From assembly GCF_003491345.1 (NCBI RefSeq), contig NZ_CP025512.1, positions 3,032,001 through 3,096,000 of the forward strand: DNA of 64,000 nucleotides, read 5' to 3'. Position numbers and translations under genes: made by a program. The notes beneath the pieces were generated by a model. The model searched no databases. It saw only the letters and a program-made list of their open reading frames with translations, and had not been told where the DNA came from. Shown in pieces: positions 10,641 through 40,749 of this stretch; positions within the stretch are counted from its first letter, which is position 1; the number at the start of each line of letters is the position of its first letter. This DNA comes from Neorhizobium sp. SOG26 (GTDB taxonomy: Bacteria; Pseudomonadota; Alphaproteobacteria; Rhizobiales; Rhizobiaceae).

Positions 10641-12572
10641 TCAGGCGCTCTGCTTCAGGCTGCCGCCGTCCTTCGCATAACCATTTTCCTTCAGGATCGT
10701 CGTGATCTCGTCGAGCACCGTCGGATCCTCGATGGTTGCCGGCATCTTCCACGGCATGTTGTCGGCGATCTTCTGCATCGTGCCACGCAGGATCTTGCCT
10801 GACCGCGTCTTCGGCAGCTTGTGCACCACCATCACCGTCTTGAAGGCCGCCACAGGTCCGATCTCGCTCCGAACCATGTTGGTCACTTCCTTGGCGATAT
10901 CAGCTGTTTCCCGTGAAACATGGTTCTTCAGCACCAGGAAACCGCAGGGAATCTGCCCCTTGGTGGCATCGTGGACGCCAATGACCGCACACTCGGCAAC
11001 ATCGGGATGTTTGGCGCAGACCTCCTCCATGGAGCCGGTGGAAAGCCGGTGGCCTGCGCAGTTGATGATGTCATCCGTGCGCGCCATCACGAAGAGATAC
11101 CCCTCCTCGTCGATCACGCCGGCATCCGCTGTCTTGTAATAGCCGGGAAACTCTTTCAGGCAGGCGTCGCGGAAGCGATCATCCGCGTTCCAGAAGCTGA
11201 CCAGGCAGCCGGGAGGCAGCGGCAGCTTGATGACGATGTTGCCAAGCATGCCGCGCGGCACCGGCTTGCCCTCGTCATCCAGCACGTCGAGCGCATAGCC
11301 TGGCATCGGCTGTGTCGGCGAACCATGCTTGACCGGCATGAGGCCCAATCCGACGGTGTTCGCAACGATCGGCCACCCGGTCTCGGTCTGCCACCAGTGG
11401 TCGATCACCGGCACCTTCAGCTTCTCCTCGGCCCAGCGCAGCGTTTCAGAGTCTGCCCGTTCACCGGCCAGGAACAGCGCCCGCATGCCGCTGAGGTCGT
11501 AATGCTGAATGAGCTCGCCATCCGGATCATCACGGCGAATTGCCCGGAAGGCGGTCGGTGCCGTGAACAGCACCTTCACGTCATGATCGCGGACGACGCG
11601 CCAGAAGGTACCGGCATCGGGCGTGCCCACCGGCTTGCCTTCGAAGATGACGCTGGTATTGCCCGTCAGCAGCGGCGCATAGACGATGTAGGAATGGCCG
11701 ACGACCCAGCCGATGTCGGAAGCGGTCCAGAAAACCTCGCCCGGCTTCATGCCGAAGATGTTGAACATGCTCCACTGCAGCGCCACCATGTGCCCGCCAT
11801 TGTCGCGCACGACCCCCTTGGGCTGGCCAGTGGTGCCGGATGTGTAGAGAATGTAGAGGGGATCAGTTGCCTTGACCGGCACGCAATCGACCTGCTGGCC
11901 GCGCGCCTTGGAAACGGTTTCTGCAAAATCGAGCTCGCCTCGTTCGGCGCTGAGTTCCGCCTGGAGCTGCGGTCGCTGCAGGACGAGGCAGTTCTTCGGC
12001 TTGAGGCGCGCCATCTCCACCGCCTGGTCGAGAAGTGGCTTATAGGCAACCACCCGCCCCGGCTCGAGGCCGCAGCTCGCGCTGATCACCAGTTTCGCTT
12101 CCGAATCGTCCAGGCGGGCGGCGAGCTCCTGCGCGGAAAACCCGCCAAAGACGACGGAATGCACCGCACCAATTCGAGCGCAGGCCAGCATGGAAAACAC
12201 CGCCTCGGGCACCATCGGCATGTAGATGACGACGCGGTCGCCCTTTTGAATGCCGAGGTCAAGCAAGGTGGCAGCAATCGCCTGAACCTCGACAAGCGTT
12301 TCCGCATAGGTGAAGGTGCGGGTCTCACCTGTCATGGCGCTGTCGTGGATGAAGGCCCGGTGGTTGCCGCGGCCGGCGGCCACGTGCCTGTCGAGACAGT
12401 TATAACAGGTATTGGTTTCGCCCCCGACGAACCAGCGCCCATAAACGCCTTGCTCGGGATCGAAGATCTTCTCCGGCTGCTTGAACCAGTCGATTGCCTC
12501 GGCGGCTTTCCCCCAGAACCCTTCCGGATCCTGCTGCCAGCCACCGTACACCTCGAAATAGCGGCTCTGCAT
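10641..12572 (-). CDS. prpE: Propionyl-CoA synthetase PrpE
   Basis: A 643-residue adenylate-forming enzyme that activates propionate. It starts with the PrpE-type SRYFEVYGGWQQDPEGFWG, and carries YTSGTTGQPKGVVRDNGGH, DHWWQTETGWP, RTDDIINCAGHRLSTG and [18 protein letters not shown] and NCAGHRLSTG separate PrpE from Acs. GGGAGGAG precedes the ATG. It is a paralogue of the acs product at 7.7 kb, and the two flank trcR, converging or diverging on it. A parS-like palindrome lies inside the gene (10905-10920), where the minus-strand codons read NHVSRET. Confidence 0.94.
   Translation of the reverse strand: MQSRYFEVYGGWQQDPEGFWGKAAEAIDWFKQPEKIFDPEQGVYGRWFVGGETNTCYNCLDRHVAAGRGNHRAFIHDSAMTGETRTFTYAETLVEVQAIAATLLDLGIQKGDRVVIYMPMVPEAVFSMLACARIGAVHSVVFGGFSAQELAARLDDSEAKLVISASCGLEPGRVVAYKPLLDQAVEMARLKPKNCLVLQRPQLQAELSAERGELDFAETVSKARGQQVDCVPVKATDPLYILYTSGTTGQPKGVVRDNGGHMVALQWSMFNIFGMKPGEVFWTASDIGWVVGHSYIVYAPLLTGNTSVIFEGKPVGTPDAGTFWRVVRDHDVKVLFTAPTAFRAIRRDDPDGELIQHYDLSGMRALFLAGERADSETLRWAEEKLKVPVIDHWWQTETGWPIVANTVGLGLMPVKHGSPTQPMPGYALDVLDDEGKPVPRGMLGNIVIKLPLPPGCLVSFWNADDRFRDACLKEFPGYYKTADAGVIDEEGYLFVMARTDDIINCAGHRLSTGSMEEVCAKHPDVAECAVIGVHDATKGQIPCGFLVLKNHVSRETADIAKEVTNMVRSEIGPVAAFKTVMVVHKLPKTRSGKILRGTMQKIADNMPWKMPATIEDPTVLDEITTILKENGYAKDGGSLKQSA
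10905..10920. other. parS: parS-like site inside prpE
   Basis: TGTTTCCCGTGAAACA differs by one base from the consensus TGTTTCACGTGAAACA. The mismatch is a synonymous Arg codon change in prpE. About 15.7 kb left of oriC. Confidence 0.6.
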
Positions 12573-12665
12573 CTGCTCCTCCCGTTACACTGCGCTGCCT
12601 AGATGCAGCTAATCTAAAGTGTCTAGAAGGGCGGGGGAAGCCCGACCAAGGGCTAGTAGCTCGCG

Positions 12666-13325
12666 TCAGCGCGACCCGAAGATAGCCGAACCGACGCGCA
12701 CACTGGTTGCGCCGAACTCAACAGCTGTTTCAAAGTCGCCCGACATGCCCATTGAAAGCTTCTCCACGCCACACTCTTTGGCGAGCTTCTGCAGCAGCGC
12801 AAAATGTGGTCCAGGGTTCTCTTCGGCCGGGGGGATGCACATCAGCCCTTCGATCGCGAGCCCCAGGTCCTTGCGGCAAAATTCCATGAACTGCACGGTT
12901 TCCTTGGGATCAATCCCCGCCTTCTGCGGCTCAAGCCCGGTGTTCACCTGCACGTAGAGCTTCGGCGCCCTGCCCTGCTTCTTGATCTCCTCACCAAGTG
13001 CCCGGGCGATCTTCTCGCGGTCCACCGTTTCGATGACGTCGAACAGCGCCACGGCATCGGCTGCCTTGTTGGATTGCAACGGGCCGATCAGGTGCAGCTC
13101 GATATCCGGCGTCTCCGCCTTCAGCTCCGGCCACTTGCCCTGGCTTTCCTGCACGCGGTTTTCGCCGAACACGCGCTGGCCGGCGGCAATGACCGGCCGG
13201 ATGGCATCGCCGTCGAAGGTCTTTGACACCGCCACAAGACTCACCGAACCTGCTGGACGCTTTGCGTATCTCTCCGCCTTTGCGATCCGCGACCTGACAT
13301 CCTGTAGCCGTTCTTCGACGCTCAT
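12666..13325 (-). CDS. YggS/PLPBP family pyridoxal-5'-phosphate homeostasis protein
   Basis: A 219-residue single-domain PLP-binding TIM-barrel protein without known enzyme activity; the family controls vitamin B6 and amino acid pools. The PLP lysine lies in LVAVSKTFDGD (about residue 35), with FGENRVQESQGKWP, the phosphate-binding end MGMSGDFETAVEFGATSVRVGSAIFG, here seen as two parts, and the LHLIGPLQSNKA motif. I chose MSVEERLQ, which has AAGG upstream; a TTG two codons earlier is possible. Divergent from leuS, with 174 bp between. Confidence 0.93.
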   Translation of the reverse strand: MSVEERLQDVRSRIAKAERYAKRPAGSVSLVAVSKTFDGDAIRPVIAAGQRVFGENRVQESQGKWPELKAETPDIELHLIGPLQSNKAADAVALFDVIETVDREKIARALGEEIKKQGRAPKLYVQVNTGLEPQKAGIDPKETVQFMEFCRKDLGLAIEGLMCIPPAEENPGPHFALLQKLAKECGVEKLSMGMSGDFETAVEFGATSVRVGSAIFGSR

Positions 13326-13499
13326 GATCAACCGCCTTCCACTATTTCTTGCAAGCTGCGGGCTTAGCGCTCATATAGGCTGGTGCCAAGGGTCTTTGCC
13401 TTGAACCTGCCGCTCTCCCGCCCTCAAAACTTGACGCTTGCAGGGTTTCGTGGTGAAGGTCACCCAACTTTTTCCTGCTTTTCCCGGAATTTCATCGAA

Positions 13500-17693: not shown

Positions 17694-17694
17694 G

Positions 17695-18576
17695 TTATCG
17701 GCGCTCCAGCAACCGACAAACCTCTTCCAATTGTTCCAAGCTGCGGTAACCGATTCGGATGTGACCGCCACCGTTCTTGTGGTTGATGCGGACATCAAGG
17801 CCCAGTGCGTCAGACAGCGTACGCTCCAGCGCCAGGGTATCCGAATCCTTTTCCTCCTTGCGGGAGGCGGAAGCGGGTTCGGATTGAGCTTTGATGTCGT
17901 TCTGGGCTAACCGCTCGGCATCACGCACCGACATTCCCTTGGCAACGATGGTGCGCGCCAGCGCTGCGGGGTCGGAGGTAGTGATGAGCGCGCGGGCATG
18001 ACCGGCGGAGAGACTGCCTGCCGCGACCATATCCCGCACGGGCTCTGGCAGCTTCAACAGACGCAGGCTGTTTGCCACATGGCTACGGCTCTTGCCGATA
18101 ATCTCGCCTAAATCGTTTTGCGTGTATCCGTGCTCCGCTATCAACTGCTCGTAGCCAAGCGCTTCTTCGAGCGGGTTGAGGTCAGCACGCTGGACGTTCT
18201 CGACTATGGCGATCTCGAGCGCCGTGCGATCGTCCACATCACGAACGATAACCGGGATCTCGACCAGTCCAGCCAACTGCGCCGCACGCCAGCGACGTTC
18301 GCCGGCGATGATTTCGTATTGGTCACCGCCCTTGTTGCGCACCACGACCGGCTGCACAATCCCATGCTGGCGTATCGAGCTTGCCAGATCCTGCAGGTCG
18401 CTTTCGACGAAGTTGCGGCGCGGGTTGCGTGGGTTGCGCGAGATATGCTCGATCGGCACCATCCGGTCAGGATTGACGGTCGGCGCCGGAGCATTCGCCG
18501 GCACCGGCTGGTCCATCTCGCCGATCAGCGCGGCAAGACCGCGCCCAAGCCGTCGCTTCGATAGATCATCACTCAT
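17695..18576 (-). CDS. parB: Chromosome partitioning protein ParB
   Basis: CTP-dependent DNA clamp that loads at parS and spreads. The 293-residue product has the N-terminal KRRLGRGLAALIGE, the ParB/Sulfiredoxin domain (about 35-130) with the CTP-binding GERRWRAAQLAGL, the HTH parS-recognition region (GYTQNDLGEIIGKSRSHVANSLRLL, residues about 150-180, given here as a region) and a C-terminal dimerisation domain (HIRIGYRSLEQLEEVCRLL). Downstream of parA with 27 bp between. Seven parS-like palindromes in this window are its expected targets. Confidence 0.97.
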   Translation of the reverse strand: MSDDLSKRRLGRGLAALIGEMDQPVPANAPAPTVNPDRMVPIEHISRNPRNPRRNFVESDLQDLASSIRQHGIVQPVVVRNKGGDQYEIIAGERRWRAAQLAGLVEIPVIVRDVDDRTALEIAIVENVQRADLNPLEEALGYEQLIAEHGYTQNDLGEIIGKSRSHVANSLRLLKLPEPVRDMVAAGSLSAGHARALITTSDPAALARTIVAKGMSVRDAERLAQNDIKAQSEPASASRKEEKDSDTLALERTLSDALGLDVRINHKNGGGHIRIGYRSLEQLEEVCRLLERR

Positions 18577-18603
18577 TGCTCAACCCTGTGTTTTAGAAGC
18601 GCA

Positions 18604-19395
18604 TCAGGCGGCTTTACGCCGACGCTCTCTTTGAATGACTTCCGATGCCAGCTGAAGATAAGCCTGGCTACCGGCGCATTTGAGATCATACAAGATCGCT
18701 GGTTTACCATGAGACGGCGCCTCGGAAACCCGCACATTGCGCGGGATCAGCGTATGGTAAACCTTCTCGCCTAGATAGGTGCGTACATCACTGACGACCT
18801 GCTGGGCAAGGTTGTTACGGGCGTCGAACATGGTCAGGACGATGCCCTGGATATCGAGCGACGGGTTCACTGTCCGACGAACTTGGTCCACCGTCTCCAG
18901 AAGCTGGCTCAGGCCTTCCAGCGCAAAGAACTCGCATTGCAGCGGCACAAGCACGGAATGCGCCGCTGCCATGGCGTTCATTGTCAACAGGTTGAACGAC
19001 GGCGGACAATCAACGAGAATGTAAGAATAAGCGCGTGCCTCTTGGCTTTGCAGCGCGCGCCGGAGCTTGAATGCACGGTCGGTATCCTGGGCGATCTCCA
19101 TCTCGAAACCGAGCAGGTCCATTGTCGACGGCACGATCGACAGGTTCGGTACGGCGGTTGCCTGCACAGTCTCCGGAATGGAGTTGAAGCCCATCAACAG
19201 GTCATAGGAGGAGAGCTTTCGATCCCGGCGTTCGATACCCAACCCGGTGCTCGCATTGCCCTGCGGGTCCAAGTCGATGATCAGCACCTGCTCGCCGATG
19301 GCGGCAAGGGCAGTCGCCAGATTGATCGCTGTTGTGGTTTTACCAACGCCGCCCTTTTGATTGGCGATCGTAATGATCCGGTTCTTGTCGAACAT
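18604..19395 (-). CDS. parA: Chromosome partitioning ATPase ParA
   Basis: Deviant Walker-A ATPase that moves ParB-parS complexes. The Walker A motif is KGGVGKT at residues 14-20, with the signature lysine, followed by Walker A' (VLIIDLDPQGNASTGLG) and Walker B (YILVDCPPSFNLL). 263 residues, chromosomal ParA/Soj size, with no N-terminal extension. It lies between rsmG and parB, the standard alphaproteobacterial origin-proximal arrangement. Confidence 0.97.
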   Translation of the reverse strand: MFDKNRIITIANQKGGVGKTTTAINLATALAAIGEQVLIIDLDPQGNASTGLGIERRDRKLSSYDLLMGFNSIPETVQATAVPNLSIVPSTMDLLGFEMEIAQDTDRAFKLRRALQSQEARAYSYILVDCPPSFNLLTMNAMAAAHSVLVPLQCEFFALEGLSQLLETVDQVRRTVNPSLDIQGIVLTMFDARNNLAQQVVSDVRTYLGEKVYHTLIPRNVRVSEAPSHGKPAILYDLKCAGSQAYLQLASEVIQRERRRKAA

Positions 19396-19414
19396 GCTGC
19401 ACCTTAGTTCAAGG

Positions 19415-20026
19415 TTACCTGCGCGTCAGGTTGCTGATCTCAAGGATCACCGAGTCCTGCTCAACCGCGCTTCGATGTTCTACCAGATCAAAAGTCCACC
19501 GACCATGCGCTTTCTGAATCTCGCTCGCGTAATCCCGCCCTTTATGGAAGAAGGCTTTGGTCGGATTCCCTTTCATCCAAGGTTCCGAAAGCTCCAGAAG
19601 CATGTCCAAATCCGCTAGAGCCCGTGCCGAAATCGCATCCGCAGTGGGAATGATGGCGTGTGCGGCATCGATGCGCATGGGTTGAACCGAGCCGCGGGCG
19701 CCCGTCTCATTCAGCGCAACCCGCAAAAAGGCGCATTTCTTCTGGTTGCTCTCCACCAGATTCACCCATCCATCTCCCAGTTCCGCAAGAAGAATAGCGG
19801 TGATCACACCAGGAAAGCCGCCGCCAGAGCCGAGATCGACCCACTGCTGTGGCTGGGGTGACAGCTGGAAGATCTGCGCACTGTCAGCGATGTGGCGGTT
19901 CCAGAGTTCGTCAAGCGTGGACGGCGCCACGAGGTTGATCGTGCGGGCCCATTTAGAAAAAAGCGCCGCAAAATGCTCAAGCCTCTGTTGCGTTTCACGT
20001 GAAACACTTCTTCCGTTTAACTTCAT
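19415..20026 (-). CDS. rsmG: 16S rRNA m7G527 methyltransferase RsmG (GidB)
   Basis: Methylates N7 of a guanine in the 530 loop of 16S rRNA. The 203-residue product has the SAM motif [12 protein letters not shown] near residue 72 and [10 protein letters not shown]. Its ATG overlaps the mnmG stop by one base (TGATG), so translation is coupled. The 5' end contains a perfect 14-bp parS core, and the protein reads SVSRET there (residues 7-12). Loss of rsmG in other bacteria gives low-level streptomycin resistance. Confidence 0.95.
19991..20006. other. parS: parS site inside the 5' end of rsmG
   Basis: Contains the complete palindrome GTTTCACGTGAAAC (19992-20005), the only perfect core in the window. 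It lies about 1.2 kb upstream of parA and about 6.5 kb from oriC. Confidence 0.88.
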
Positions 20027-21900
20027 CAGGAGACTCGTTTAAGGCGACTATCGGCGCTTTCGCGCTTTTTAAGAAGTGCGAGGATGAGGGCGAGAGCAGC
20101 CGGTGTCATTCCATCCACACGAGCGGCTTGGGCGAGATTGGCCGGTGCAGCCTTTCCAAGCTTGAGCTTCAACTCATTGGACAGGCCCGGCAGCGATGAG
20201 AAGTCAAAATCGCCCGGGATGATACGCGCTTCATCCTTACGCGTCGCCGAAATGTCCGCAGCCTGCCGCTCCATATAGACCGCGTAAGACGCCTCAATCT
20301 CCAGCGCCTCGGCAACCTTTGGAGCCAAGTTGCCCAGCTCAGGCCATACCTTGGATAGACCGGGAAGAGATTGCTCCGGATAAGACAGTAGCTCATATGC
20401 CGAGCGACGCTGGCCGTCCTGGTTGATCTTGATACCGTGCAGCTTTGCTTCGTTCGGCGTCAGTGTCATAGTCCGAAGCAATTCGCGGCCTTGTTCAAGA
20501 TCACGTTGATACCTTTGAAAACGCAGTTCACGTTCAGGTCCGACACAACCGAGCTCGATACCAGCGCCAGTCAAACGGATATCGGCGTTGTCCGCCCGGA
20601 GCGAAAGCCTGTACTCGGCGCGCGAGGTGAACATTCGGTATGGTTCCGTAACCCCTTTAGAGGTGAGGTCATCAATCATGACGCCGATATAGGAGTCTGC
20701 ACGTCCAAAGACGTAAGCCTCTGCGCCACTTGCTTGACGAGCGGCATTTAAGCCGGCAATAAGCCCTTGCGCGGCTGCTTCTTCATAACCGGTCGTGCCA
20801 TTGATCTGGCCCGCGAGAAACAAGCCATTGATCTTTTTCACTTCCAGCGCCGCCGTTAGCTCGCGCGGATCAACGTGGTCATACTCGATCGCGTAACCAG
20901 GCTGGAAGATCTCGACACGTTCCAAACCAGGAATGGTCCTAATAAAAGCTTCCTGAACTGCGGCGGGCAGTGATGTCGAAATGCCATTTGGATAAACAGT
21001 CGGATCATCCAGACCTTCCGGCTCGAGGAAGACCTGATGCCCATCGCGCTCGCCGAAGCGGACGATCTTGTCCTCGATGGAGGGGCAATAGCGCGGACCG
21101 ACGCCCTCAATCTGCCCGGAGTACATCGCCGAGAGACGGATATTGTCGGAGATGATCTTGTGCGTCGCGTCCGTGGTACGCGTAACCCCACATTCGATCT
21201 GCGGCGTCGTGATGCGATCAGTCATGAAAGAAAAGGGAACCGGATCTTCATCCGCAGCCTGGCTTCCGATGCTCTGCCAGTCAATCGTCCGTCCGTCGAG
21301 ACGTGCCGGCGTTCCGGTTTTCAAACGCCCGAGTTTCAATCCGAAGCGCGAAAGGGTGTCGGACAGACCCATCGATGGCGCTTCGCCAACGCGGCCAGCC
21401 GGAATCTTTTCGCTGCCGAGATGGATTAACCCACGTAGGAAGGTACCAGTCGTCAAGACAACCGTTACGCATGCGAATCGACGGCCGTCCTTCATGACGA
21501 CCCCAGCGATGCGATCGTTCTTTATGTCGAGATCAAAGGCATCGCCCTCGATGACATCGAGGTTCGGATGTCCCTCAATCTCACGCTGCATCGCCAGACG
21601 GTAAAGCTTTCGGTCCGCCTGCGTGCGTGGTCCGCGAACAGCTGGGCCCTTCTTCCGGTTCAGCAGACGAAACTGGATCCCGGCAGCATCAGCGACACGT
21701 CCCATCAATCCATCGAGCGCATCGACTTCACGAACAAGATGGCCTTTCCCCAATCCACCGATGGCCGGATTGCAGGACATGACCCCGATAGTATCGCGGT
21801 TATGGGTAACGAGGGCAGTTCTGGCACCAAGACGTGCAGCGGCGCTCGCTGCCTCGCATCCAGCATGACCACCACCGATCACGATAACATCGTAACTCAT
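20026..21900 (-). CDS. mnmG: tRNA uridine-5-carboxymethylaminomethyl modification enzyme MnmG (GidA)
   Basis: FAD protein that with MnmE modifies U34 of several tRNAs. The N-terminal FAD motif is [21 protein letters not shown]. GidA signatures [39 protein letters not shown] and [20 protein letters not shown] are present. I chose [11 protein letters not shown] (624 residues) because AGGAA sits 7 bases upstream; a Met two codons earlier is nearly equivalent. Codon usage around here is somewhat richer in A/T than in neighbouring genes. A parS-like site lies just upstream. Confidence 0.96.
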
Positions 21901-21928
21901 CTTCATTCCTGTTCGATGAAACCCAAAG

Positions 21929-21942
21929 GTTTCACGTGAATC
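21929..21942. other. parS: parS-like site between mnmE and mnmG
   Basis: GTTTCACGTGAATC, one mismatch from the perfect core. It overlaps the first bases of the mnmE stop codon and lies 29 bp before the mnmG start. Confidence 0.72.
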
Positions 21943-23236
21943 ACTTCCCGATGCAGAACTGAGAGAATATGACGCCGAGAAGTTCCTCGACATCCACGCG
22001 ACCCGTAATGCGTCCAAGGGATGTCGCAGCACCCCGCAAATTTTCTGCCCGGACGTCGAGTTCTGTGCCGTTTAGCGCGTCCTGAATAAAATGGGAAGCC
22101 TCTTTGAGGTAGCGGACGTGGCGTTGACGACCGGGGACAAGGCCGCCGGACCAGGTTTGTTTCACCTTCGTGGCGATGAGATTGCGGAGTTCGTCCAGGC
22201 CGTCGCCTATCTTTGTCGAGATGCAGAGGTCGTAAGCCGTCCGAGGCTCATGCCGATCCAGTTTGGTCCCAACCTTCAAAACTTCAGCATCGCCAGTCGT
22301 CGCGAACTGTTGCGGATCCGAATCGATCTCCTGAAGAAGCAAGACAAGATCTGCTTGTTCGAGCGTATCCTTCGCACGCCGCACACCTTCACGTTCCACG
22401 ACGTCTTCTGTTTCCCGGATACCGGCCGTGTCAAAGAAGCGCACGAGATAGCCATCGATATCAAGATCAACGTGCAGCACATCACGCGTCGTGCCTGCGA
22501 TGTCCGTAACAATCGCAACATCGCGCTTGGCCAAGGCGTTGAGCAGGCTGGACTTTCCAGCGTTTGGTGGGCCAACGATCGCCACCTTGTAACCGTCGCG
22601 GATGATCTCGCCCGCCTTCGCTTCCGCGAGATGTTGTTCAATCTCTAGATAAAGATCCCCGACCTCAGCCCAGACCTGATCCGATACCGAGCCTGGTACA
22701 TCTTCCTCATCCGCAAAATCGAGTTCGGCCTCGATCAACGCGCGCGCTTTCGTCAGCCGCTGCGCCCATTCCATGTAAAGGGCTGATTGACCGCCAAAAC
22801 TCTGCTCGACCGCCAAGCGCCGCTGCATTTCCGTCTCGGACGCTACGAGATCTGCCAGCGCCTCGGCTTCCACCAGATCGAGCTTACCGTTCTCGAAGGC
22901 CCGCCGGGTGAACTCCCCAGCTTCAGCAAGTCGCAGACCCGGCAGTGCCTCCAGCGCACGATAAACAGCGGCGACAACCGCGCGGCTGCCATGCAGATGA
23001 AGTTCGACGCAGTCTTCGCCGGTAAAGGAGGCAGGGGCCTGGAAAACCAGGACGAGCGCCTGGTCGATCATCTGGCCTTGAGCATCCCGAACCGTCCTCA
23101 GAACCGCCTTACGCTGCTCCGGCAGAGTGCCAATGAGTGCCACTGCAGCATCGAGTGCTTTAGGACCACTGATTCGCAACACCGCGACGCCGGCTGGAAG
23201 CGCTCCGCTGGACAAGGCATAGATCGTATCAGTCAT
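21941..23236 (-). CDS. mnmE: tRNA modification GTPase MnmE (TrmE)
   Basis: Partner of MnmG. The 431-residue product has the tetrahydrofolate-binding N-terminal domain ([21 protein letters not shown]), a helical domain, and the inserted G domain with [15 protein letters not shown] near residue 225, DIAGTTRD and DTAGIRET. It ends in FCIGK; the C-terminal Cys-x-Gly-Lys is the catalytic end of the family. The start MTDTIYALS is the conserved one; the longer frame is not family-like. Gene order mnmE-mnmG-rsmG-parA-parB is the classical origin-proximal cluster. Confidence 0.96.
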
Positions 23237-23278
23237 GGCGTGTCCCTTGGCATCTCCATTTATACCGGTCCACCAAAC

Positions 23279-23309
23279 AAAAAACGCCCGGTCTTGCCGA
23301 GCGTTCTTC
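23279..23309 (-). terminator. Intrinsic terminator downstream of rho
   Basis: On the minus strand AACGCTCGG pairs with CCGGGCGTT (one G-T wobble) around a 5-nt loop and is followed by a T-run (GTTTTTTG). It lies between the rho stop and the mnmE start. Confidence 0.75.
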
Positions 23310-23329
23310 ATCTGGAATCCGGCTAAGGA

Positions 23330-24774: not shown

Positions 24775-25329
24775 TCAGAACGGCTTCACGATCACCAGAA
24801 TGACGATCAGGATCATCAAAAGCGTCGGCATTTCGTTCATCAGGCGCCAGTAGCGGGCGGTCTTGCGCGGACCATCGGCGGCAAAGCTGCGCACCGCCTT
24901 GCTGAACAGCATGTGCACGCCGGTCAGCAACACCACGAGCAGGATCTTGGCGTGCAGCCATCCGCCCTGGAAACCATAGGCTTCGGAGGCGAGGTAAAGG
25001 CCGAGCAGCCAGGTGATCATCATCGCCGGGTTCATGATGATCTTCAGCAGTCGCTGCTCCATCATCTTGAAGGTTTCCGACTGGGCTGAACCGGGCTCGG
25101 CATCGGTGTGGTAGATGAACAGCCGCGGCATGTAGAGCATCCCGGCCATCCAGGAGATCACGGCGATCACGTGAAACGCCTTGATGTAGAGCAGGAAATT
25201 GTCCGGCTGCGCGAGATAGACGCAAAGCAGGATCGCCAGGAACACGCCGAGCGCCACGAAGGCTCTCAGCGCCGATTTGCGGCCGGCAACGGGTCCGGCC
25301 TGCTTGTTTTCCGGCTTCACGCCTTCCAT
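24775..25329 (-). CDS. hemJ: Protoporphyrinogen oxidase HemJ (CopD-like membrane protein)
   Basis: A 184-residue inner-membrane protein that oxidises protoporphyrinogen IX in many alphaproteobacteria lacking HemG and HemY. Four to five hydrophobic helices are visible, including [23 protein letters not shown], whose His residues are the conserved putative haem ligands, given here as two overlapping parts of one helix region. Its start overlaps the end of hemE by 13 bp, so the two haem genes are coupled. A degenerate parS-like CACGTG half-site lies inside it. Confidence 0.9.
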
Positions 25330-26348
25330 CCGCGCACCCGTTCGATCAGCCGCGTCACGTTATCCGGATCCGCTTCCGGCGTAATGCCATGACCGAGGTT
25401 GAAGATCAGCGGTCCTTGCCCCAACACCTGCAGGATCGCGTCAACGCCATCATCCAGCGACTTGCCGCCAGCGACGACACGCATCGGATCGAGGTTGCCC
25501 TGAACCGGCCCATCCTTCTGCAGTTCCTGCGCAAAGGAAAGCGGCACGGACCAGTCGAGCCCGATCGCATCCGCCCTGGTTTTCTGGCGGTAGGTCTTCA
25601 GGTTCAGCCCGGCACCCTTCGCAAAAGCGATGACCTTGGCGCCCGGCCGCGCCTGGCGCACGATCTCGATCATCCGCGCCACCGGCTTTGCGGCAAAAGC
25701 ATCAAACTCTGTTTCACCCAGCACGCCGGCCCAGGAATCGAAGATCTGCACGGCGTCGGCACCGGCATCGATCTGAGCAATCAGGTACTGCGCCGAAACT
25801 TCTGCCAGGAACGACAGGAGCTTTTCGAAAGCTTCCGGATGCCGATAGGCGAAAAGCCGCGCCGGCGCCTGGTCGCTCGTGCCGTGACCGGCGATCATAT
25901 AGGTCGCAACCGTCCAGGGAGCGCCACAGAAGCCCAAGAGGGTCGTTTCCTGGGGCAGCGCCCCCCGAAGCCGCCGAACCGTCTCCAGCACCGGCTGCAG
26001 GTGCGGCAGCACGCCATCGTCCTTCAGCGCCAGGATCTCGCTGACATCGATCGGGTCCATCTGCGGACCCTCTCCCTGCACGAAGCGGACATTACGCTTC
26101 AAGGCATCGGGAATGACGAGGATGTCGGAAAACAGGATAGCCGCATCAAAGCCATAACGCCGGATCGGCTGCAGCGTCACTTCGACGGCAAAGTCGGGGG
26201 TGTAGCAGAGATCAAGGAAACCACCGGCTTTGGCACGCGTTTCCCGGTACTCGGGCAGATAACGTCCCGCCTGCCTCATGAGCCAGATCGGTGGTGGCGA
26301 GACAGTCTTGCCTTCAAGGACGCTCAGGATCCTCCGGGGGGTGCCGGT
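25317..26348 (-). CDS. hemE: Uroporphyrinogen decarboxylase
   Basis: Decarboxylates uroporphyrinogen III to coproporphyrinogen III in haem synthesis. [17 protein letters not shown] at the N-terminus is the family signature 1, and [14 protein letters not shown] signature 2. I chose TTG 26348 ([14 protein letters not shown], 343 residues): AGGGAG lies 6 bases upstream, and the length fits the family. A longer frame starts at another TTG (26369) but would include the ribosome binding site. Transcribed away from oriC; hemE next to the origin is a known feature in Caulobacter and rhizobia. Confidence 0.95.
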
Positions 26349-26750
26349 CAATGGGTTCTCCCTAAACAAAGAAATGATTTTAAAAGAGTTTCTATTTCTT
26401 AGAGTCGGTGGGTAGCAAGGATTAAAGTCAAATCACAGGCACGCATCGAAACCGCTGGATATCCCGCAGATGCGCAGATCCAAATGCCGCCCTTTGCCGC
26501 ATCTGTGGATCATCGCGATTCTGCAAGCCAAATCAGCCACATCTTCCTCCGCAGGATCGGCGTTCGTCTGTGGATATTGGGTGGACGGTGATTCTCTTGT
26601 AGTGGTTATCCCCAGAGCCCACAACACGCTTGGAATCCTGTCCGGCTGATCACCGAATGTGGAAAACCCGGCAGTTTTCCCGACCCCCTCCGGCCGCAGC
26701 ACCCGGGTCGTCATTCTCTCCCCAGTTATCAACAAAGGACCAAAAACAGC
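26349..26750. other. oriC: Chromosomal replication origin oriC (predicted)
   Basis: A 402-bp gene-free segment between divergent hemE and ppsR. It shows (a) an AT-rich stretch at about 26364-26404, a candidate unwinding element; (b) five DnaA-box-like 9-mers between 26504 and 26734; (c) four GANTC (CcrM methylation) sites at 26402, 26517, 26590 and 26633 within 236 bp, where about one is expected by chance. Known for the group: the Caulobacter and Sinorhizobium origins adjoin hemE. Flanking parAB and parS sites support it. No CtrA full motif (TTAA-N7-TTAA) was found. No direct proof of initiation here is possible from sequence. Confidence 0.88.
26504..26734. promoter_or_regulatory. Cluster of DnaA-box-like sequences
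   Basis: Positions: 26504-26512 TGTGGATCA (minus TGATCCACA), 26569-26577 TGTGGATAT (minus ATATCCACA), 26606-26614 TTATCCCCA, 26658-26666 TGTGGAAAA (minus TTTTCCACA, matching TTWTNCACA exactly), 26726-26734 TTATCAACA. Four differ by one base from TTATCCACA. Orientations are mixed, and spacings are about 65, 37, 52 and 68 bp. Confidence 0.75.
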
Positions 26751-27572
26751 GTGGAGAACAAAAGAAACTTCTTCCATCTGCACCTGATATCTGACTCAAC
26801 GGGCGAGACTCTCATTTCCGCCGGCCGCGCCGCAGCCGTGCAATTCCAGGGCTCGCTGCCGGTCGAACACGTCTATCCCCTGATCCGAAATCGCAAGCAG
26901 TTGCTGGCTGTTCTGGAAGCCGTGGATCGGGAACCTGGCATTGTTCTCTACACGCTTGTCGACGAGGAACTCGCAAGCCTCATCGATGAACGCTGCCGCG
27001 AGATAGGGCTGCCGAGCGTCAATGTTCTTGAGCCGGTGCTGACAGTTTTCCAGACCTATCTTGGCGCCTTGTCGCGCCGCCGGGTCGGCGCCCAGCACGC
27101 GCTCAATGCCGAATATTTCAAACGCATCGAAGCCCTGAACTTCACCATGGATCATGATGATGGGCAGATGCCGGAAGATTATGATGACGCCGATGTCGTG
27201 CTGATCGGCATCAGCCGCACCTCGAAAACGCCAACAAGCATCTACCTCGCCAACCGCGGCATCAAGACCGCCAATATCCCAATCGTGCCAGGCGTCGACC
27301 TGCCTGAGAGCCTGTACCGCGCCACCCATCCACTCATCGTCGGTCTGGTGGCAACGACAGATCGCATCAGCCAGGTGCGTGAGCATCGCGAGCTTGGCGT
27401 GACTCAAGGGTTTGACCGACGTCATTACACCGATCGTGCCACCATCCATGAAGAGCTGAAATACGCCCGCGCGCTCTGCGCCCGCCATAACTGGCCGATC
27501 ATCGACGTCACGCGGCGATCGATCGAGGAGACGGCGGCGGCGATCGTTGCACTGCGCCCGAAGCTGCGTTAA
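26751..27572 (+). CDS. ppsR: Pyruvate, water dikinase regulatory protein-type kinase/pyrophosphorylase (DUF299)
   Basis: A 273-residue bifunctional Ser/Thr kinase and pyrophosphorylase that controls PEP synthase or pyruvate phosphate dikinase by reversible phosphorylation. The N-terminus [15 protein letters not shown] and the P-loop-like [15 protein letters not shown] are family hallmarks. The start is GTG, directly at the end of the origin segment; no strong ribosome binding site is visible. In rhizobia the expected partner is PpdK, not seen in this window. It begins the plus-strand series ppsR-maf-aroE-coaE-dnaQ. Confidence 0.92.
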
Positions 27573-27601: not shown

Positions 27602-28210
27602 GTGTCCGTTTCTGCTGAACAAGTCCCCCTCGTTCTCGCGTCATCCAGCCCGTTTCGCCGCATGCTGATGCAGAATGCCGGACTGACGTTTCAGGCCCGG
27701 GCGGCGGACATCGACGAGCGCCGCATCGAGGCAGGGTTGGAAGGTGCAGCGCCCGATGAGGTGGCACTGACCCTCGCCGCCGCAAAGGCGATGGAAGTCA
27801 GCAACCATTTTCCAGATGCGATCGTCATCGGCTCGGACCAGACCATGTCGCTCGGCAAGCGTGTCTATCACAAGCCGAAGAGCCGTCAGGAGGCGAAGGA
27901 AAACCTCCTTTCTCTCTCCGGAAAAACGCATCGGCTGAACAGCGCGATTGCGTTGGCGCGTGGTGGCGATGTCCTTTGGGAGCATGTGTCGCATGCCGAT
28001 CTCACGGTGCGCACACTCAGTGAGGAGTATGTAGATCATTATCTCGATCGCGTTGGTGAAGCGGTTTTCAGCAGCGTTGGCGCCTACCAATTGGAGGGGG
28101 AGGGCATCCAGCTCTTCTCCCGGATCGATGGCGACTATTTCACCATTCTTGGCCTGCCCATGCTGCCTCTGCTGGAAAAGCTTCGCCAGTTAGGAGCCAT
28201 CCGTGGCTGA
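27602..28210 (+). CDS. Maf-like nucleotide pyrophosphatase (YceF type)
   Basis: A 202-residue house-cleaning pyrophosphatase. Visible motifs are [12 protein letters not shown] at the N-terminus, [16 protein letters not shown] (the Asp is catalytic) and the [21 protein letters not shown] region. GSDQ rather than GADT suggests the YceF (7-methyl-GTP) branch rather than YhdE (dTTP/UTP), but specificity is inference. The start is GTG. It overlaps aroE by 8 bp. Confidence 0.88.
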
Positions 28211-29060
28211 TTCACGTGAAACATTTGTGGTTAATGCTTTCGTAACGGGCTGGCCCGTCAAGCACTCACGCTCGCCATTGATCCACGGTCACTGGCTGAA
28301 GCAGCTCGGCATTGCCGGCAGCTATAGGGCAGAACCAGTTGCCGAGGATGCATTCGCTGCCTTCATCCAGAGCCTGAAAGACGGCAGGTCCAGTTATCGC
28401 GGCGGCAATGTTACCATTCCGCATAAGGAGCGCGCCTGCGCGCTGGCAGATCGCCTGGACGATCTGGCGGAAGAGCTGGGTGCCGCCAATACACTCTGGA
28501 TGGAGGAAGGTCGTCTCCATGCGACCAATACTGATGGCCATGGTTTTACCGCCAACCTCGACCATCAACATCCCGGCTGGGACAAGGCCGATCGCGCCGT
28601 GGTATTCGGGGCAGGCGGCGCCAGCCGCGCCGTCGTCCAATCGTTGCGCGATCGCGGCTTGAGCGAAATCTACGTCGTCAATCGCACGGTGTCGCGGGCA
28701 CAGGAACTGGCGGATCGTTTTGGCGCAAAGGTGACGGCGCATCCGACGGAAGCACTGGCTGAAGTCATGACCAGCGCTGGCCTTTTCGTGAACACGACCT
28801 CGCTTGGGATGGACGGTAGCGAAGCGCCACGGATCGATTTCAGCCGCCTGGCCGCTGGCGCGGTTGTCACCGACATTGTTTATGTACCCCTGAAAACGCC
28901 GCTCCTCCTCCAGGCTGAACAGCAGGGTTTCGCGACTGTCGATGGGCTCGGCATGTTGCTGCACCAGGCAGCGCCCGGTTTTGAAAAATGGTTCGGCCGC
29001 CGTCCGACCGTGGACGATACGCTGCGCAACCTCGTCATCGCCGACATGGACAAACACTGA
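28203..29060 (+). CDS. aroE: Shikimate dehydrogenase
   Basis: NADPH-dependent reduction of 3-dehydroshikimate in aromatic amino acid synthesis. The 285-residue product has the shikimate-binding [22 protein letters not shown] with the catalytic Lys, GAANTLW, and the NADP-binding [16 protein letters not shown]. The start is GTG within the maf end. A parS-like palindrome overlaps codons 3-7, which read DSRET; conservation of a DNA site under the N-terminus may explain this poorly conserved part. Its stop overlaps the coaE start by one base. Confidence 0.95.
28209..28222. other. parS: parS-like site in the 5' end of aroE
   Basis: GATTCACGTGAAAC, one mismatch from the perfect core. It lies about 1.5 kb to the right of oriC. 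Confidence 0.72.
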
Positions 29061-34400: not shown

Positions 34401-34436
34401 TTTGGGCTTGCATCCACCGCTTTTGCAGGGCTCAAG

Positions 34437-34465
34437 CTTTAGAATCGGCCTCGGTTTACCTATAT
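34437..34465 (+). promoter_or_regulatory. gyrB: Possible gyrB promoter
   Basis: CTATAT at 34460-34465 matches the rhizobial -10 consensus. The sequence 17 bases upstream (CTTTAG) is a poor -35. The distance to the gyrB ATG is about 62 bases. Confidence 0.3.
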
Positions 34466-34508
34466 ATTCGAGGACGAATGGCTGGTGATTCGCTCAACCG
34501 GCTCTTGA

Positions 34509-36962
<2,454 letters not shown>

Positions 36963-36966
36963 GCTC

Positions 36967-36993
36967 AAAGGGCGGCCGTCAGTGCCGCCCTTT
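36967..36993 (+). terminator. gyrB terminator
   Basis: AAAGGGCGGC and GCCGCCCTTT form a 10-bp perfect stem with a 7-nt loop (CGTCAGT), a few bases after the gyrB stop. The T-tract is short (TTTCC). Confidence 0.75.
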
Positions 36994-36995
36994 CC

Positions 36996-37009
36996 GTTTC
37001 ACGTGAATC
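36996..37009. other. parS: parS-like site, left member of an inverted pair
   Basis: GTTTCACGTGAATC, one mismatch. It begins 3 bp after the gyrB terminator stem. With the next site it forms a large inverted repeat. Confidence 0.75.
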
Positions 37010-37021
37010 TCCTGTGGACAG

Positions 37022-37035
37022 GATTCACGTGAAAC
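37022..37035. other. parS: parS-like site, right member of an inverted pair
   Basis: GATTCACGTGAAAC, the exact reverse complement of the site at 36996. The 12-bp spacer TCCTGTGGACAG includes TGTGGACAG, a DnaA-box-like sequence (minus CTGTCCACA). Confidence 0.75.
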
Positions 37036-37053
37036 ACTTTGGTAAGACGTTCG

Positions 37054-37653
37054 TCAGGCTTCGCTGGTGAAACGGCCTTCGAAGGCGATCTCCGCCACCG
37101 GCTTTCGGTTGTTCGGCCTCTCCCGCTCCGCCAGATCCTCAGGCAACAGGCTCCGGTCGCCGATCTTGCCGATTGCCGCTGCCGCTTCTACCCGGTAGCC
37201 GTCCGGGATCCCGAGCAGTTCGACCGCCTTCTCCTTGTCGAAGCCTTCCATTCCATGCGCGTGGTAGCCGAGCTTCATCGCCTGGCAGATCACGGAGAAC
37301 CAGGCAGCACCCGTGTCATAGGAATGAGTATAGGCGGTGCGGCGCTCGCCCGTACTCGTCAGCCGGTAAGTCTTGGAGATGACGAAGAGCAGCGCGCCCG
37401 CATTCTTCGCCCAGCGCTGGTTACCTTCTGTCAGGATCCCAAGCAGCACATCGAAAGCCGGTGTGCCGCGCAGGCCATAGACAAACCGCCACGGCTGGTT
37501 GTTGCCGGAGGAGGGCGCCCAATGCGCCGCATCCAGGATCGTCAGCATCGTCTCGCGGCTGACCGGCTCCCCGGTGAAAGCGCGTGGCGACCAGCGGTCG
37601 AGGAAGAAGGCATCAATCGGAAATTCTGAAACGCGCGTGTTGCTGCTGGTCAT
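37054..37653 (-). CDS. Nitroreductase family protein
   Basis: A 199-residue FMN-dependent oxidoreductase-like protein. RWSPRAFTGEPVSRETML and AAHWAPSSGNNQPWRFVYG form the FMN-binding N-terminal signature; the glycine-poor C-terminus includes IPDGYRVEAAAAIGKIGD. The substrate is unknown. It is divergent from the FAH-family gene with 149 bp between; a promoter is not obvious. Confidence 0.88.
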   Translation of the reverse strand: MTSSNTRVSEFPIDAFFLDRWSPRAFTGEPVSRETMLTILDAAHWAPSSGNNQPWRFVYGLRGTPAFDVLLGILTEGNQRWAKNAGALLFVISKTYRLTSTGERRTAYTHSYDTGAAWFSVICQAMKLGYHAHGMEGFDKEKAVELLGIPDGYRVEAAAAIGKIGDRSLLPEDLAERERPNNRKPVAEIAFEGRFTSEA

Positions 37654-37802
37654 GCCGGTCCTCGCTCACTGGTGGTGCAAGGAAAAGGATAAGCCCGGCG
37701 TACCGCTTGGCAAGAGATGCGGGTTGCGCGACAGGCTTTGACGCGCGACAAGGAGGGGAGCATGTCCCATTCTATTTTTCGACGCAAGTGGAGGAACATC
37801 CT

Positions 37803-38645
37803 GTGAAATTGATGCGTGTAGGTCCAGCTGGACAGGAAAAGCCGGCAGCACTCGATAGCGACGGCAAGGTGCGCGACCTGTCGGGTCATGTGCCGGATAT
37901 CGCCGGTGCGGCCATTTCGCCTGAAAACATCGCCAAGCTCGCGGCTTTGGATCTGAAGAGCCTGCCGGAACTGCAGGTTGATCGCATCGGCCCCTGCGTT
38001 GCCGGCACCGGCAAGTTCATCTGCATCGGCCTCAACTATTCCGACCACGCTGCCGAGACCGGCGCGACCGTTCCACCGGAGCCGATCATCTTCATGAAGG
38101 CCACCTCGGCCATCGTCGGTCCCAACGATGATGTCGTCATTCCGCGCGGCTCCGAAAAGACCGATTGGGAAGTCGAACTCGGCGTCGTCATCGGCAAGAC
38201 TGCAAAATATGTCTCGGAAGACGAGGCGATGGATTACGTCGCCGGTTATTGCCTCACCAATGATGTGTCCGAGCGCGCCTATCAGTCGGAACGCGCCGGG
38301 CAGTGGACCAAGGGCAAGTCCTGCGACACCTTTGGCCCGATCGGCCCCTGGCTCGTCACCAAGGATGAAGTCGCCGATCCGCAGAACCTTGCCATGTGGC
38401 TCACCGTCAATGGCGAGAAGATGCAGAACGGCTCGACCAAGACCATGGTCTACGGCGTCCGCCACCTCGTTTCCTACCTCAGCCAGTTCATGTCGCTGCA
38501 TTCGGGCGACATCATTTCCACCGGAACGCCCCCCGGGGTCGGCCTTGGCATGAAGCCGCAGCGCTTCCTGAAGCCCGGTGATGTCGTCGAGCTTGGTATC
38601 GAAGGCCTCGGCACACAGAAGCAGACTTTCGTCGCCGATCGATAA
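37803..38645 (+). CDS. Fumarylacetoacetate hydrolase family protein
   Basis: A 280-residue enzyme of the FAH superfamily, which cleaves C-C bonds or hydrates in catabolism of aromatic compounds and related acids. The core shows FICIGLNYSDHAAETGA and the metal-binding glutamates in WEVELGVVIGK; KGKSCDTFGPIGPWLV and TGTPPGVGLG follow. Some close homologues are named ureidoglycolate lyase, but the substrate cannot be told from this sequence. The start is GTG (VKLMRVGPAG): GGAGG lies 8 bases upstream; the frame upstream is open but not FAH-like. Confidence 0.9.
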   Translation: MKLMRVGPAGQEKPAALDSDGKVRDLSGHVPDIAGAAISPENIAKLAALDLKSLPELQVDRIGPCVAGTGKFICIGLNYSDHAAETGATVPPEPIIFMKATSAIVGPNDDVVIPRGSEKTDWEVELGVVIGKTAKYVSEDEAMDYVAGYCLTNDVSERAYQSERAGQWTKGKSCDTFGPIGPWLVTKDEVADPQNLAMWLTVNGEKMQNGSTKTMVYGVRHLVSYLSQFMSLHSGDIISTGTPPGVGLGMKPQRFLKPGDVVELGIEGLGTQKQTFVADR

Positions 38646-38911
38646 GATGAACACTCACCTGCCGGTAGCGGACGCCATCGGCAGGTCCTGCATCTCATTT
38701 TGCCCAGATGCATGTTGCGGAACCTTAAGCTCTGCATGCGATTGTAGAACTGACCGGTAGCTCTGGTTCAGTCCTGGAGGCAAAGCCGCCTCTGCTTCAA
38801 TTTGCACTGCACAATAAAATGATGTTAGCCTCACAGTCGCCCGCTGCTGAACCGGTAGGTACAACCTCACCGTTCAATCCATTCCAAGAACTGGCAAAGG
38901 GTGGCACATCC
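38646..38911. other. Intergenic region upstream of phaZ
   Basis: A 266-bp gap. It holds a stem-loop just after the FAH gene (ACCTGCCG 38657-38664 / CGGCAGGT 38679-38686, no T-tract, a possible terminator) and a PHA-type regulatory motif at 38802. An ATG at 38819 is in frame with phaZ and would add 31 residues, but the added part is not family-like. Confidence 0.5.
38802..38814 (+). promoter_or_regulatory. Possible PhaR-like operator before phaZ
   Basis: TTGCACTGCACAA followed by TAAAAT. TGC-rich, imperfectly palindromic sequences of this kind precede phasin and other PHA genes in alphaproteobacteria and bind the repressor PhaR. The assignment to PhaR is recalled, not tested, and phaR is not in this window. 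Confidence 0.4.
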
Positions 38912-40150
38912 ATGTTCTACCAGCTTTACGAGATGAACCATGCAGCCGTCGCGCCTTTCCGGGCAGCGGCAGATGCCATGAAGTTCTTCTACAAGAACCC
39001 GCTCAATCCGCTGTCGCAGACGGAGTTAGGCCGCAGCATTTCCGCGTCGCTGGAGCTTTTCGAACGCGTCACCCGGCGTTACGGCAAACCCGAATTCGGT
39101 CTCCCGCAAACCGTTGTTGATGGCCAGCCCGTTGCCGTTACGGAAGAAATCATCTGGGCAAAACCCTTCTGCAATCTCCTGCACTTCCGCCGCGACCTGC
39201 CGGCCTCGCGACCGGCTGATGAAAAGATCCTCATCGTCGCGCCGATGTCTGGCCACTACGCGACGCTCCTGCGTGGCACGGTGGAAGCGCTTCTTCCACA
39301 TGCCGATGTCTACATCACCGACTGGATCGACGCCCGCATGGTGCCGGTGGGGGAGGGCAGCTTCGACCTCGATGACTATATCGACTACCTCATCGAGATG
39401 TTGGCTGTGCTCGGCCCCGGCGCGCATGTGGTGGGCGTATGCCAGCCTTCGGTTCCGGTTCTGGCGGCCGTTGCCGTCATGGAAGACAGCAAGGATCCCG
39501 CGCTCCCGGCGACCATGGCGCTCATGGGCGGGCCGATTGATACCCGCATCAATCCAACTGCCGTCAACCAGCTGGCACAGGAACATCCGCTGGAATGGTT
39601 CCGCGACAACGTCATCATGACAGTGCCGTGGCCGCAGCCGGGCGTCATGCGCCACGTCTACCCTGGCTTCCTGCAGCTCTCTGGTTTCATGTCGATGAAC
39701 CTCGACCGCCACCTCACGGCGCACCAGGAATTCTTCCAGCACCTCGTCAAGAACGACGGCGAGTCGGCAGAAAGGCACCGCGATTTCTATGACGAATATC
39801 TCGCCGTCATGGATCTCACGGAAGAGTTCTATCTTCAGACTGTGGACACCGTCTTCATCAAGCACGCGCTGCCGAAGGGCGAGATGATGCACCGTGAGAC
39901 ACGGGTCGACACGACCGCGATCCGCAACGTCGCACTGCTCACCATCGAAGGCGAAAACGACGACATCTCCGGCCTCGGCCAGACCAAGGCAGCGCACACC
40001 ATCTGCACCAACATCCCGGATGAAAAGCGCATGCACTACATGCAACCGGATGTCGGGCATTATGGCGTGTTCAACGGTTCGCGCTTCCGCCGCGAGATCG
40101 CGCCGCGCATCATCGAGTTCACCCGCCGGCATGGCGTGAGCAGGACGTAA
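38912..40150 (+). CDS. phaZ: Intracellular polyhydroxyalkanoate depolymerase
   Basis: Mobilises stored polyhydroxybutyrate. The 412-residue product begins MFYQLYEMNHAAVAPFRAA, the conserved start of rhizobial PhaZ. It has an alpha/beta-hydrolase fold with a cysteine in the nucleophile position (VVGVCQPSVP near residue 175), an Asp near GENDDISG and a His in VGHYGVFNG, giving a Cys-Asp-His-type triad. GGGTGG precedes the ATG. The next gene is a DUF2852 protein 154 bp downstream. Confidence 0.9.
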   Translation: MFYQLYEMNHAAVAPFRAAADAMKFFYKNPLNPLSQTELGRSISASLELFERVTRRYGKPEFGLPQTVVDGQPVAVTEEIIWAKPFCNLLHFRRDLPASRPADEKILIVAPMSGHYATLLRGTVEALLPHADVYITDWIDARMVPVGEGSFDLDDYIDYLIEMLAVLGPGAHVVGVCQPSVPVLAAVAVMEDSKDPALPATMALMGGPIDTRINPTAVNQLAQEHPLEWFRDNVIMTVPWPQPGVMRHVYPGFLQLSGFMSMNLDRHLTAHQEFFQHLVKNDGESAERHRDFYDEYLAVMDLTEEFYLQTVDTVFIKHALPKGEMMHRETRVDTTAIRNVALLTIEGENDDISGLGQTKAAHTICTNIPDEKRMHYMQPDVGHYGVFNGSRFRREIAPRIIEFTRRHGVSRT

Positions 40151-40303
40151 GCCGCGCGCACCATCCAAGGCCTGAAAACCTCTCCTATTTCAGCATCTTC
40201 TTGAATTTAATGTTCCGCCGTCTTGAACGCGGATCGTCGGCTCACCAAATCGAAAATAGTCGGGCTGGCATGAGGCCTTCCCGCTCTAGAACGAGGGTGA
40301 CCT

Positions 40304-40726
40304 ATGAATCAGTCTGCATTGATCCGTCCGGAATGGACGCCGGCCACCATTGCGCTCATGGTGCTTGGTTTCGTGGTATTCTGGCCTCTGGGCCTGGCCA
40401 TGCTCGCCTACATCATGTTCGGCGACAGGCTCAACGGCTTCAAGCGCGATGCCAACAACAAGGCCGACCGCTGGTTTGCCGGCTGCCGCCGCGCGACCTC
40501 CCGCTACAACACGCATTTCACCACTGGCAACGTGGCTTTCGATGACTGGCGCAAGGCCGAACTCGATCGCCTCGAAGAAGAGCGCCGCAAGCTGGACGAA
40601 ATGCGCGAGGAGTTCGACAACTACGTGCGCGAGCTTCGCCGCGCCAAGGACCAGGACGAGTTCGACCGCTTCATGCGTGATCGCAAGAACCGTCCCAGCG
40701 GCCAGAACCCGGTCGTTGACGTCTGA
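40304..40726 (+). CDS. DUF2852 membrane protein
   Basis: A 140-residue protein with one N-terminal hydrophobic segment (TIALMVLGFVVFWPLGLAML, residues about 15-35) and a long charged helix (about 80-125, Glu/Arg/Lys rich, coiled-coil-like). Family function is unknown. A parS-like site and a terminator follow. Confidence 0.8.
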   Translation: MNQSALIRPEWTPATIALMVLGFVVFWPLGLAMLAYIMFGDRLNGFKRDANNKADRWFAGCRRATSRYNTHFTTGNVAFDDWRKAELDRLEEERRKLDEMREEFDNYVRELRRAKDQDEFDRFMRDRKNRPSGQNPVVDV

Positions 40727-40735
40727 CGGAAGTTG

Positions 40736-40749
40736 GATTCACGTGAAAC
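40736..40749. other. parS: parS-like site downstream of the DUF2852 gene
   Basis: GATTCACGTGAAAC, one mismatch. It lies about 14.1 kb right of oriC and is the most distal right-side site seen here. Confidence 0.72.

Follow-up and report, generated by a model that had tools for sequence, protein, structure and literature searches.

The chromosomal parS cluster at the replication origin (oriC) of Neorhizobium sp. SOG26 (Alphaproteobacteria, Rhizobiaceae) appears, on sequence, to hold two classes of site: a perfect copy in gidB that is blind to methylation, and six copies in which one half of the palindrome carries a predicted target, GANTC, of the methyltransferase CcrM. Most of the cluster lies in a 64,000-nucleotide stretch of NCBI RefSeq contig NZ_CP025512.1 (positions 3,032,001 to 3,096,000 of the forward strand; hereafter the window, in whose coordinates positions are given), and it extends just beyond its edge. 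The recurrent mismatch in these sites does not look like decay, and from its pattern across relatives we conclude that GANTC is probably selected inside parS.

Searching the window for the 14-mer GTTTCACGTGAAAC with up to two mismatches returned exactly seven matches, all of them within one mismatch:

10906..10919, plus strand: parS-like GTTTCCCGTGAAAC within acs; mismatch in the core and no GANTC; doubtful or weak
19992..20005, unstranded: perfect parS within gidB codons 8-12 (VSRET); no GANTC, so no CcrM target possible
21929..21942, minus strand: GANTC-parS at the mnmE-mnmG junction; GANTC half 21938-21942 overlaps the mnmE stop
28209..28222, plus strand: GANTC-parS at the maf-aroE junction; GANTC half 28209-28213 overlaps the maf stop
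36996..37009, minus strand: GANTC-parS 3' of gyrB, on the left of an inverted pair; GANTC half 37005-37009
37022..37035, plus strand: GANTC-parS, on the right of the same inverted pair; GANTC half 37022-37026
40736..40749, plus strand: GANTC-parS flanked by a DUF2852 gene and a YgjP-like gene; GANTC half 40736-40740

These are the same seven positions that a preliminary description of the window had reported, and its estimate that chance matches would number far below one is borne out by 100 dinucleotide shuffles (mean 0.18, maximum 2). Genome-wide (4,561,173 bases), eight sites lie within one mismatch, all inside C1:3042906-3098886 (~56 kb) and thus in one zone rather than at equal density along the chromosome; the reversed control pattern has no match. 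The eighth site, at C1:3098873 (window-equivalent 66873; L009:2873), lies 2.9 kb past the window edge, and the zone is therefore wider than the 30 kb first given. Allowing two mismatches adds four genome sites, one of them nearby (window-equivalent 74767). Contig 3 has two copies of the 14-mer GTTTCGCCTGAAAC, which differs from parS at two bases (G000:C3:363067 and G000:C3:502117).

The reading of these sites as a chromosomal parS cluster that would mark the ParB loading zone is well supported, because they cluster at oriC, lie next to parA-parB-gidB-mnmG-mnmE-rho and keep their positions in named relatives. To this extent the loading zone proposed earlier stands, and the distances from oriC quoted with it agree with an oriC near 26.6 kb; what it overlooked is the eighth site, the existence of two site classes and the doubtful status of 10906. 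The asymmetric spread around oriC, to which it drew attention, is ordinary.

Six of the eight genome sites share the form GATTCACGTGAAAC in one or the other orientation, in which one half has changed from GTTTC to GATTC, a GANTC. Single changes to parS fall into 21 symmetry classes, of which one creates a GANTC, and six of the seven imperfect sites belong to that class (P = 8e-8 for at least six of seven, with the classes assumed equally likely). General GANTC richness was rejected as a full explanation: the stretch is depleted in the motif (1.5 per kb observed against 3.5 expected from base composition), though mnmE-mnmG spacers in the family contain somewhat more of it beyond their parS sites than composition predicts (7.0 per kb where 3.8 would be expected).

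The same architecture is found in relatives. In 80 Rhizobiaceae loci from named relatives (the best 80 of 387; three are short), sites within two mismatches number 343, comprising 133 perfect, 162 GANTC-bearing and 48 other sites. The GANTC-bearing sites divide into 138 with GATTC, 17 with GATTC and GGAAC in the other half, six with GACTC and one with a core change, and double-GANTC sites are absent from the 343. All 80 loci have a perfect gidB site. The mnmE-mnmG GANTC site is present in 79, and the one locus without it does not reach far enough. The aroE site is present in 72; three of the other eight loci are short and in the rest the site possibly lies outside the fetched stretch. By ParB, the closest named relatives are Neorhizobium, with up to 89% identity. 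Nine of the ten nearest named loci (L011-L020) have an extra site, GTTCCACGTGAATC, near rho (around position 3830 of the locus) in which GANTC is kept; this genome lacks it.

A broader sample of the GTDB family consists of 100 loci of up to 20 kb (eight shorter) from 92 genus codes which, with the window, make 101. Of their 381 sites, 177 are perfect, 181 have GANTC in one half only and 23 are of other forms; double-GANTC sites number 0, against 21.5 expected if the halves were independent. At least one GANTC-parS is present in 86 of the 101 loci. The mnmE-mnmG spacer combines one perfect parS with one to three GANTC-parS in 57 loci; elsewhere it holds a single GANTC-parS (14 loci), two (2), perfect parS only (14) or neither type (14).

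To obtain a substitution spectrum, the five bases preceding the fixed ACGTGAAAC were counted across the 101 family loci without a mismatch cut-off, for which ~15 chance matches are expected overall. The canonical GTTTC occurs 354 times (perfect sites counted twice), GATTC 144 times in 75 loci and GACTC 33 times in 20 loci; the minor forms are GTCTC (5), GTTCC (3) and a remainder of single occurrences. A at base 2 outside a GANTC is seen in five single five-mers, in line with chance. Within the GANTC half, C and G hardly occur at base 2, base 3 can be either pyrimidine, and in halves with A at base 2 the remaining bases (1, 4 and 5) show no variation beyond chance; this combination of rarity, freedom and fixity indicates that more than tolerance keeps A at base 2. 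A FastTree phylogeny of MnmG requires at least 15 changes in whether the GACTC form is present; this count concerns presence of the form and mixes gain and loss of sites with T/C switching.

Stop codons could explain part of the pattern. The GA of GATTC doubles as part of the TGA stop of mnmE at 21929 and of maf at 28209. As a full explanation, a stop-codon by-product was rejected: 54 of the 113 right-side GANTC halves in the family, across all contexts, lie off the mnmE stop, and no stop codon is involved at four of the six GANTC-parS sites of this genome, so stop codons cannot account for the rest.

Beyond the family the form thins out. Across 219 genomes of the phylum, exact GATTC-parS is found in all 11 members of the family (where it makes up 25 of the 50 sites within one mismatch), in 4 of 18 other members of the order (9 of 70 sites) and in 7 of 162 remaining phylum members outside the class, with one site each. 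In 199 genomes of the order, GANTCACGTGAAAC has 246 occurrences, spread over 95 genomes and 25 family codes, and 57 of these genomes have two or more; the control GSNTCACGTGAAAC, which has C or G at base 2 and is a set twice as large, gives 31 sites in 30 genomes. Under a uniform model each 14-mer would be expected roughly 6 times, so some single matches are chance. In G142, from another family, the arrangement is swapped, the gidB site having the GANTC form and the mnmE-mnmG site being perfect, which suggests that the form may have arisen more than once. Three genomes of family code f65 (G378, G512 and G534) have ten GANTC-parS each, spanning some 77-79 kb in G512 and G534.

The enzyme that would read these targets is encoded in the genome:

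L091:1384-2514: CcrM gene, with N6_N4_Mtase and RAMA domains; best NCBIfam match NF050803 CcrM, E 2.7e-190

CcrM orthologues were found in 120 of 121 genomes from the family and 193 of 199 from the order; the phylum sample gave matches in 57 of its 219 genomes, two of them weaker and outside the class. Five of the six order genomes without a match are 56-88% complete, and two of these (G476 and G531) have GANTC-parS; G481, 97% complete, has neither a CcrM match nor GANTC-parS.

The likeliest role, for which we judge the chances to be about even, is that CcrM methylation gates ParB loading at GANTC-parS. Methylation of GANTC by CcrM comes late in the cell cycle, and origin-near GANTCs therefore stay hemimethylated once the fork has passed. 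The canonical half of each GANTC-parS could hold ParB while the other half would serve as the CcrM target. Methylation of the GANTC half, where we take the methyl groups to lie in the major groove at base pairs 2 and 4 of the arm, would alter ParB nucleation, and the sites would then switch between loading states as replication turns full methylation into hemimethylation and CcrM restores it. Origin-near parS would become hemimethylated early and remain so for long. The gidB site would load ParB at all times, unaffected by methylation. As to direction, our guess is that full methylation would weaken loading and fork passage relieve it. More tentatively, and with rather less confidence than an even chance, such epigenetically gated centromeres may operate in many Hyphomicrobiales-type bacteria: a wave of hemimethylation trailing the replication fork would license newly made sister origins to load ParB (and SMC), with one methylation-blind parS as anchor and the GANTC arms mostly directed towards a pivot near oriC.

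Published binding data bear on this proposal. In PMC5450999, a T3A change in one arm (the same base, in 16-mer numbering) bound chromosomal ParB like wild type by surface plasmon resonance, and symmetrical changes abolished binding except for 1-16 and the 5-12 transition, with which the absence of double-GANTC sites agrees. In Agrobacterium tumefaciens, single-molecule real-time (SMRT) sequencing signal is lower at GANTCs near ori1 than near ter2L, which a passage of PMC11514494 ascribes to cell-cycle control of CcrM.

Several observations weigh against gating by a selected methylation target. Homologous sites are inherited, so site counts overstate the number of independent events, and the limits of the tree count given above apply as well. 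Fifteen of the 101 loci in the family sample have no GANTC-parS; three of these fifteen are shorter than 13 kb. In the order, GANTC-parS is missing from 104 of the 199 genomes while CcrM is present in 193, and CcrM is therefore not sufficient. Our sample contains no CcrM-free close relative able to test dependence; with CcrM nearly universal in it, loss of the enzyme is unusable as a control. The CcrM assignment itself scores 631.7 bits, under the NF050803 cut-off of 830. The authors of PMC5450999 also caution that the intact arm may carry binding.

The foremost alternative, which we consider unlikely, is that ParB of this lineage tolerates A at base 2 and that GANTC is a by-product, partly fixed by the TGA stops of mnmE and maf. 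Three further points that tell against selection speak for it: exact GATTC-parS is absent from the 28 genomes (0 of 73 sites) of other orders of the class, where CcrM is nearly universal; the TGA stop also fixes GA at the 59 of 113 right-type sites that overlap the mnmE stop; and one-arm changes are tolerated, T3C and T5A as well as T3A (PMC5450999). The last point cuts both ways, since tolerance of T3C and T5A means that tolerance alone does not predict A. Nor does a by-product fit the near absence of C or G at base 2, seen again in the order as 31 control (GSNTC) sites against 246, the freedom of base 3 beside bases 1, 4 and 5 with no more than chance variation, or the four genome sites away from stop codons.

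Also unlikely, and placed next, is that the relation runs the other way, bound ParB blocking CcrM so that parS GANTCs stay un- or hemimethylated as an occupancy mark or timing delay and not as loading control. MucR is described in PMC5172544 as shielding GANTCs from CcrM in Caulobacter crescentus and Sinorhizobium meliloti, and such shielding fits the same sequence data as gating does, but it gives no clear reason to keep the motif at so many parS sites. Less probable again is another reader of GANTC, such as GcrA at methylated GANTC promoters, which would tie transcription near oriC to the cell cycle: promoter-near GANTCs are CcrM-regulated in A. tumefaciens (a passage of PMC11514494) and the mnmE-mnmG spacers have the GANTC excess noted above, but the sites at 36996, 37022 and 66873 lie after genes, between convergent or terminated units and not at promoters, and the motif is tied to the parS frame. 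Chance and decay, with the imperfect sites as drifting parS relics, is very improbable: imperfect parS sites exist in many bacteria and the acs site looks decayed, but 181 of the 204 imperfect family sites share one motif, none doubled, 25 family codes within the order have the form (some single matches possibly chance), and the spectrum before ACGTGAAAC contradicts it.

The GANTC halves also have a polarity, which is an observation and not a rule. In this genome the half faces oriC at five of six sites. In the 76 of 101 family loci in which oriC could be defined, 133 halves point towards oriC and 25 away. By position, those facing oriC are 85 of 85 at mnmG|mnmE and 23 of 23 at aroE; at gyrB 11 face towards and 4 away; and at rho|hemE plus hemE 21 of 22 point away. 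Among 57 family loci with at least two GANTC-parS, 53 have all halves directed towards a single pivot between mnmE and hemE, and the four exceptions all have the gyrB inverted pair. Elsewhere in the order, family code f65 shows mixed orientations. A sister-specific reading of the polarity was rejected, because mirrored orientation leaves both hemimethylated forms on each sister.

The inverted pair of GANTC-parS at 36996-37035, 3' of gyrB, has its members 26 bp apart and its GANTC halves facing each other. A similarly spaced inverted pair is present in 10 of 12 same-genus relatives among the matches listed, and in family loci L093, L095 and L107.

Two sites lie within coding sequence. At gidB, the same 14 bases encode VSRET without synonymous change in 100 of the 101 family loci, and the centromere site is therefore likely to be held at the DNA level inside a coding region. 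The acs site at 10906 is the weakest of the seven and may be weak or non-functional, because its mismatch falls in the central CACGTG and it lies inside acs. VSRET is present in 23 of 74 acs genes, and its codons are then parS-like except in the core, the 14-mer being GTTTCACGGGAAAC (19 genes) or GTTTCCCGTGAAAC (4); a perfect parS occurs in none of the 74. In the named loci the acs-type form GTTTCACGGGAAAC makes up 31 of the 48 other sites. Pure coding coincidence was weighed for this site and neither accepted nor dropped, the parS-like codons arguing for keeping it as a candidate. Its core mismatch corresponds to 16-mer positions 7/10, described as somewhat permissive in PMC5450999. Directly to the left of the site is a gene of the TrcR cell-cycle regulator family (9870-10580).

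If the proposed gating is correct, it would bear on how multipartite rhizobial genomes coordinate segregation with replication: a methylation target built into the centromere would physically link fork passage, the CcrM clock and ParB loading, and segregation of the chromosome might be adjusted by the methylation that replication leaves behind; GANTC halves would also offer a simple reason for the many imperfect parS sites in these bacteria. Hemimethylation serves as a replication timer in the SeqA/Dam system, where it acts on initiation at GATC; the likeness is the timer, and the difference is that the proposed target here is ParB loading. The sites resemble chromosomal ParABS parS (16-mer TGTTTCACGTGAAACA) in their palindrome, origin-proximal position beside parAB, copy in gidB and family-typical ParB, and differ in that most copies have one arm rewritten to GANTC.

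Natural parS variation is described in PMC5450999 as falling at positions 1 and 5, less so at 7 or 10, whereas here it is at position 3. C. crescentus parS sites 1-7 likewise form an origin-proximal cluster with a conserved second half (GTGAAA) and differing affinities, and the main text of PMC5815017, which describes them, makes no mention of GANTC or methylation. The related host A. tumefaciens has a parS1/ParB1 system with a parS1 consensus identical to that of Bacillus subtilis (PMC9239152), and GANTC does not occur in the main text of that paper. GANTC sites at alphaproteobacterial promoters and repABC loci share the motif and the enzyme, the origin-proximal ones being hemimethylated longest. 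There the likeness ends: here GANTC sits inside a half-site of the primary-chromosome centromere, whereas plasmid pAMI4 has five GANTCs ~500 bp from the repABC parS and not within it (PMC9040568). A methylation assay in C. crescentus mentions GANTCs 'at the parS locus' (PMC5172544); these two are the nearest published precedents. parS and CcrM/GANTC are thus known separately, and their fusion in one site appears to be new: no earlier report of GANTC inside a chromosomal parS was found in searches of an open-access library, which leaves aside most subscription papers and the supplements (tables of undermethylated GANTCs).

The neighbourhood of the sites contains the following features:

17695..18576, minus strand: parB; Pfam ParB_N, HTH_ParB and ParB_C; 230-residue match to the solved Caulobacter ParB 6t1f
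18604..19395, minus strand: parA; Pfam AAA_31 and CbiA
19415..20026, minus strand: gidB (rsmG)
20026..21906, minus strand: mnmG (gidA)
21941..23311, minus strand: mnmE (trmE)
25317-26369, minus strand: hemE
26504..26734, unstranded: probable oriC core with five DnaA-box-like matches, flanked by hemE and the kinase/PPPase gene
26751-27572, plus strand: kinase/PPPase gene
28203..29060, plus strand: aroE; start overlaps the parS at 28209
34527..36962, plus strand: gyrB

The genes rho, mnmE, mnmG, gidB, parA and parB share the minus strand. Rhizobial oriC adjoins hemE, and 5 of the window's 11 DnaA-box-like matches fall in 26504-26734. The cumulative GC skew of the window has its minimum at 48000-49000, ~22 kb away from the clustered DnaA boxes; for placing oriC, gene order and the boxes themselves are likely a better guide than this minimum.

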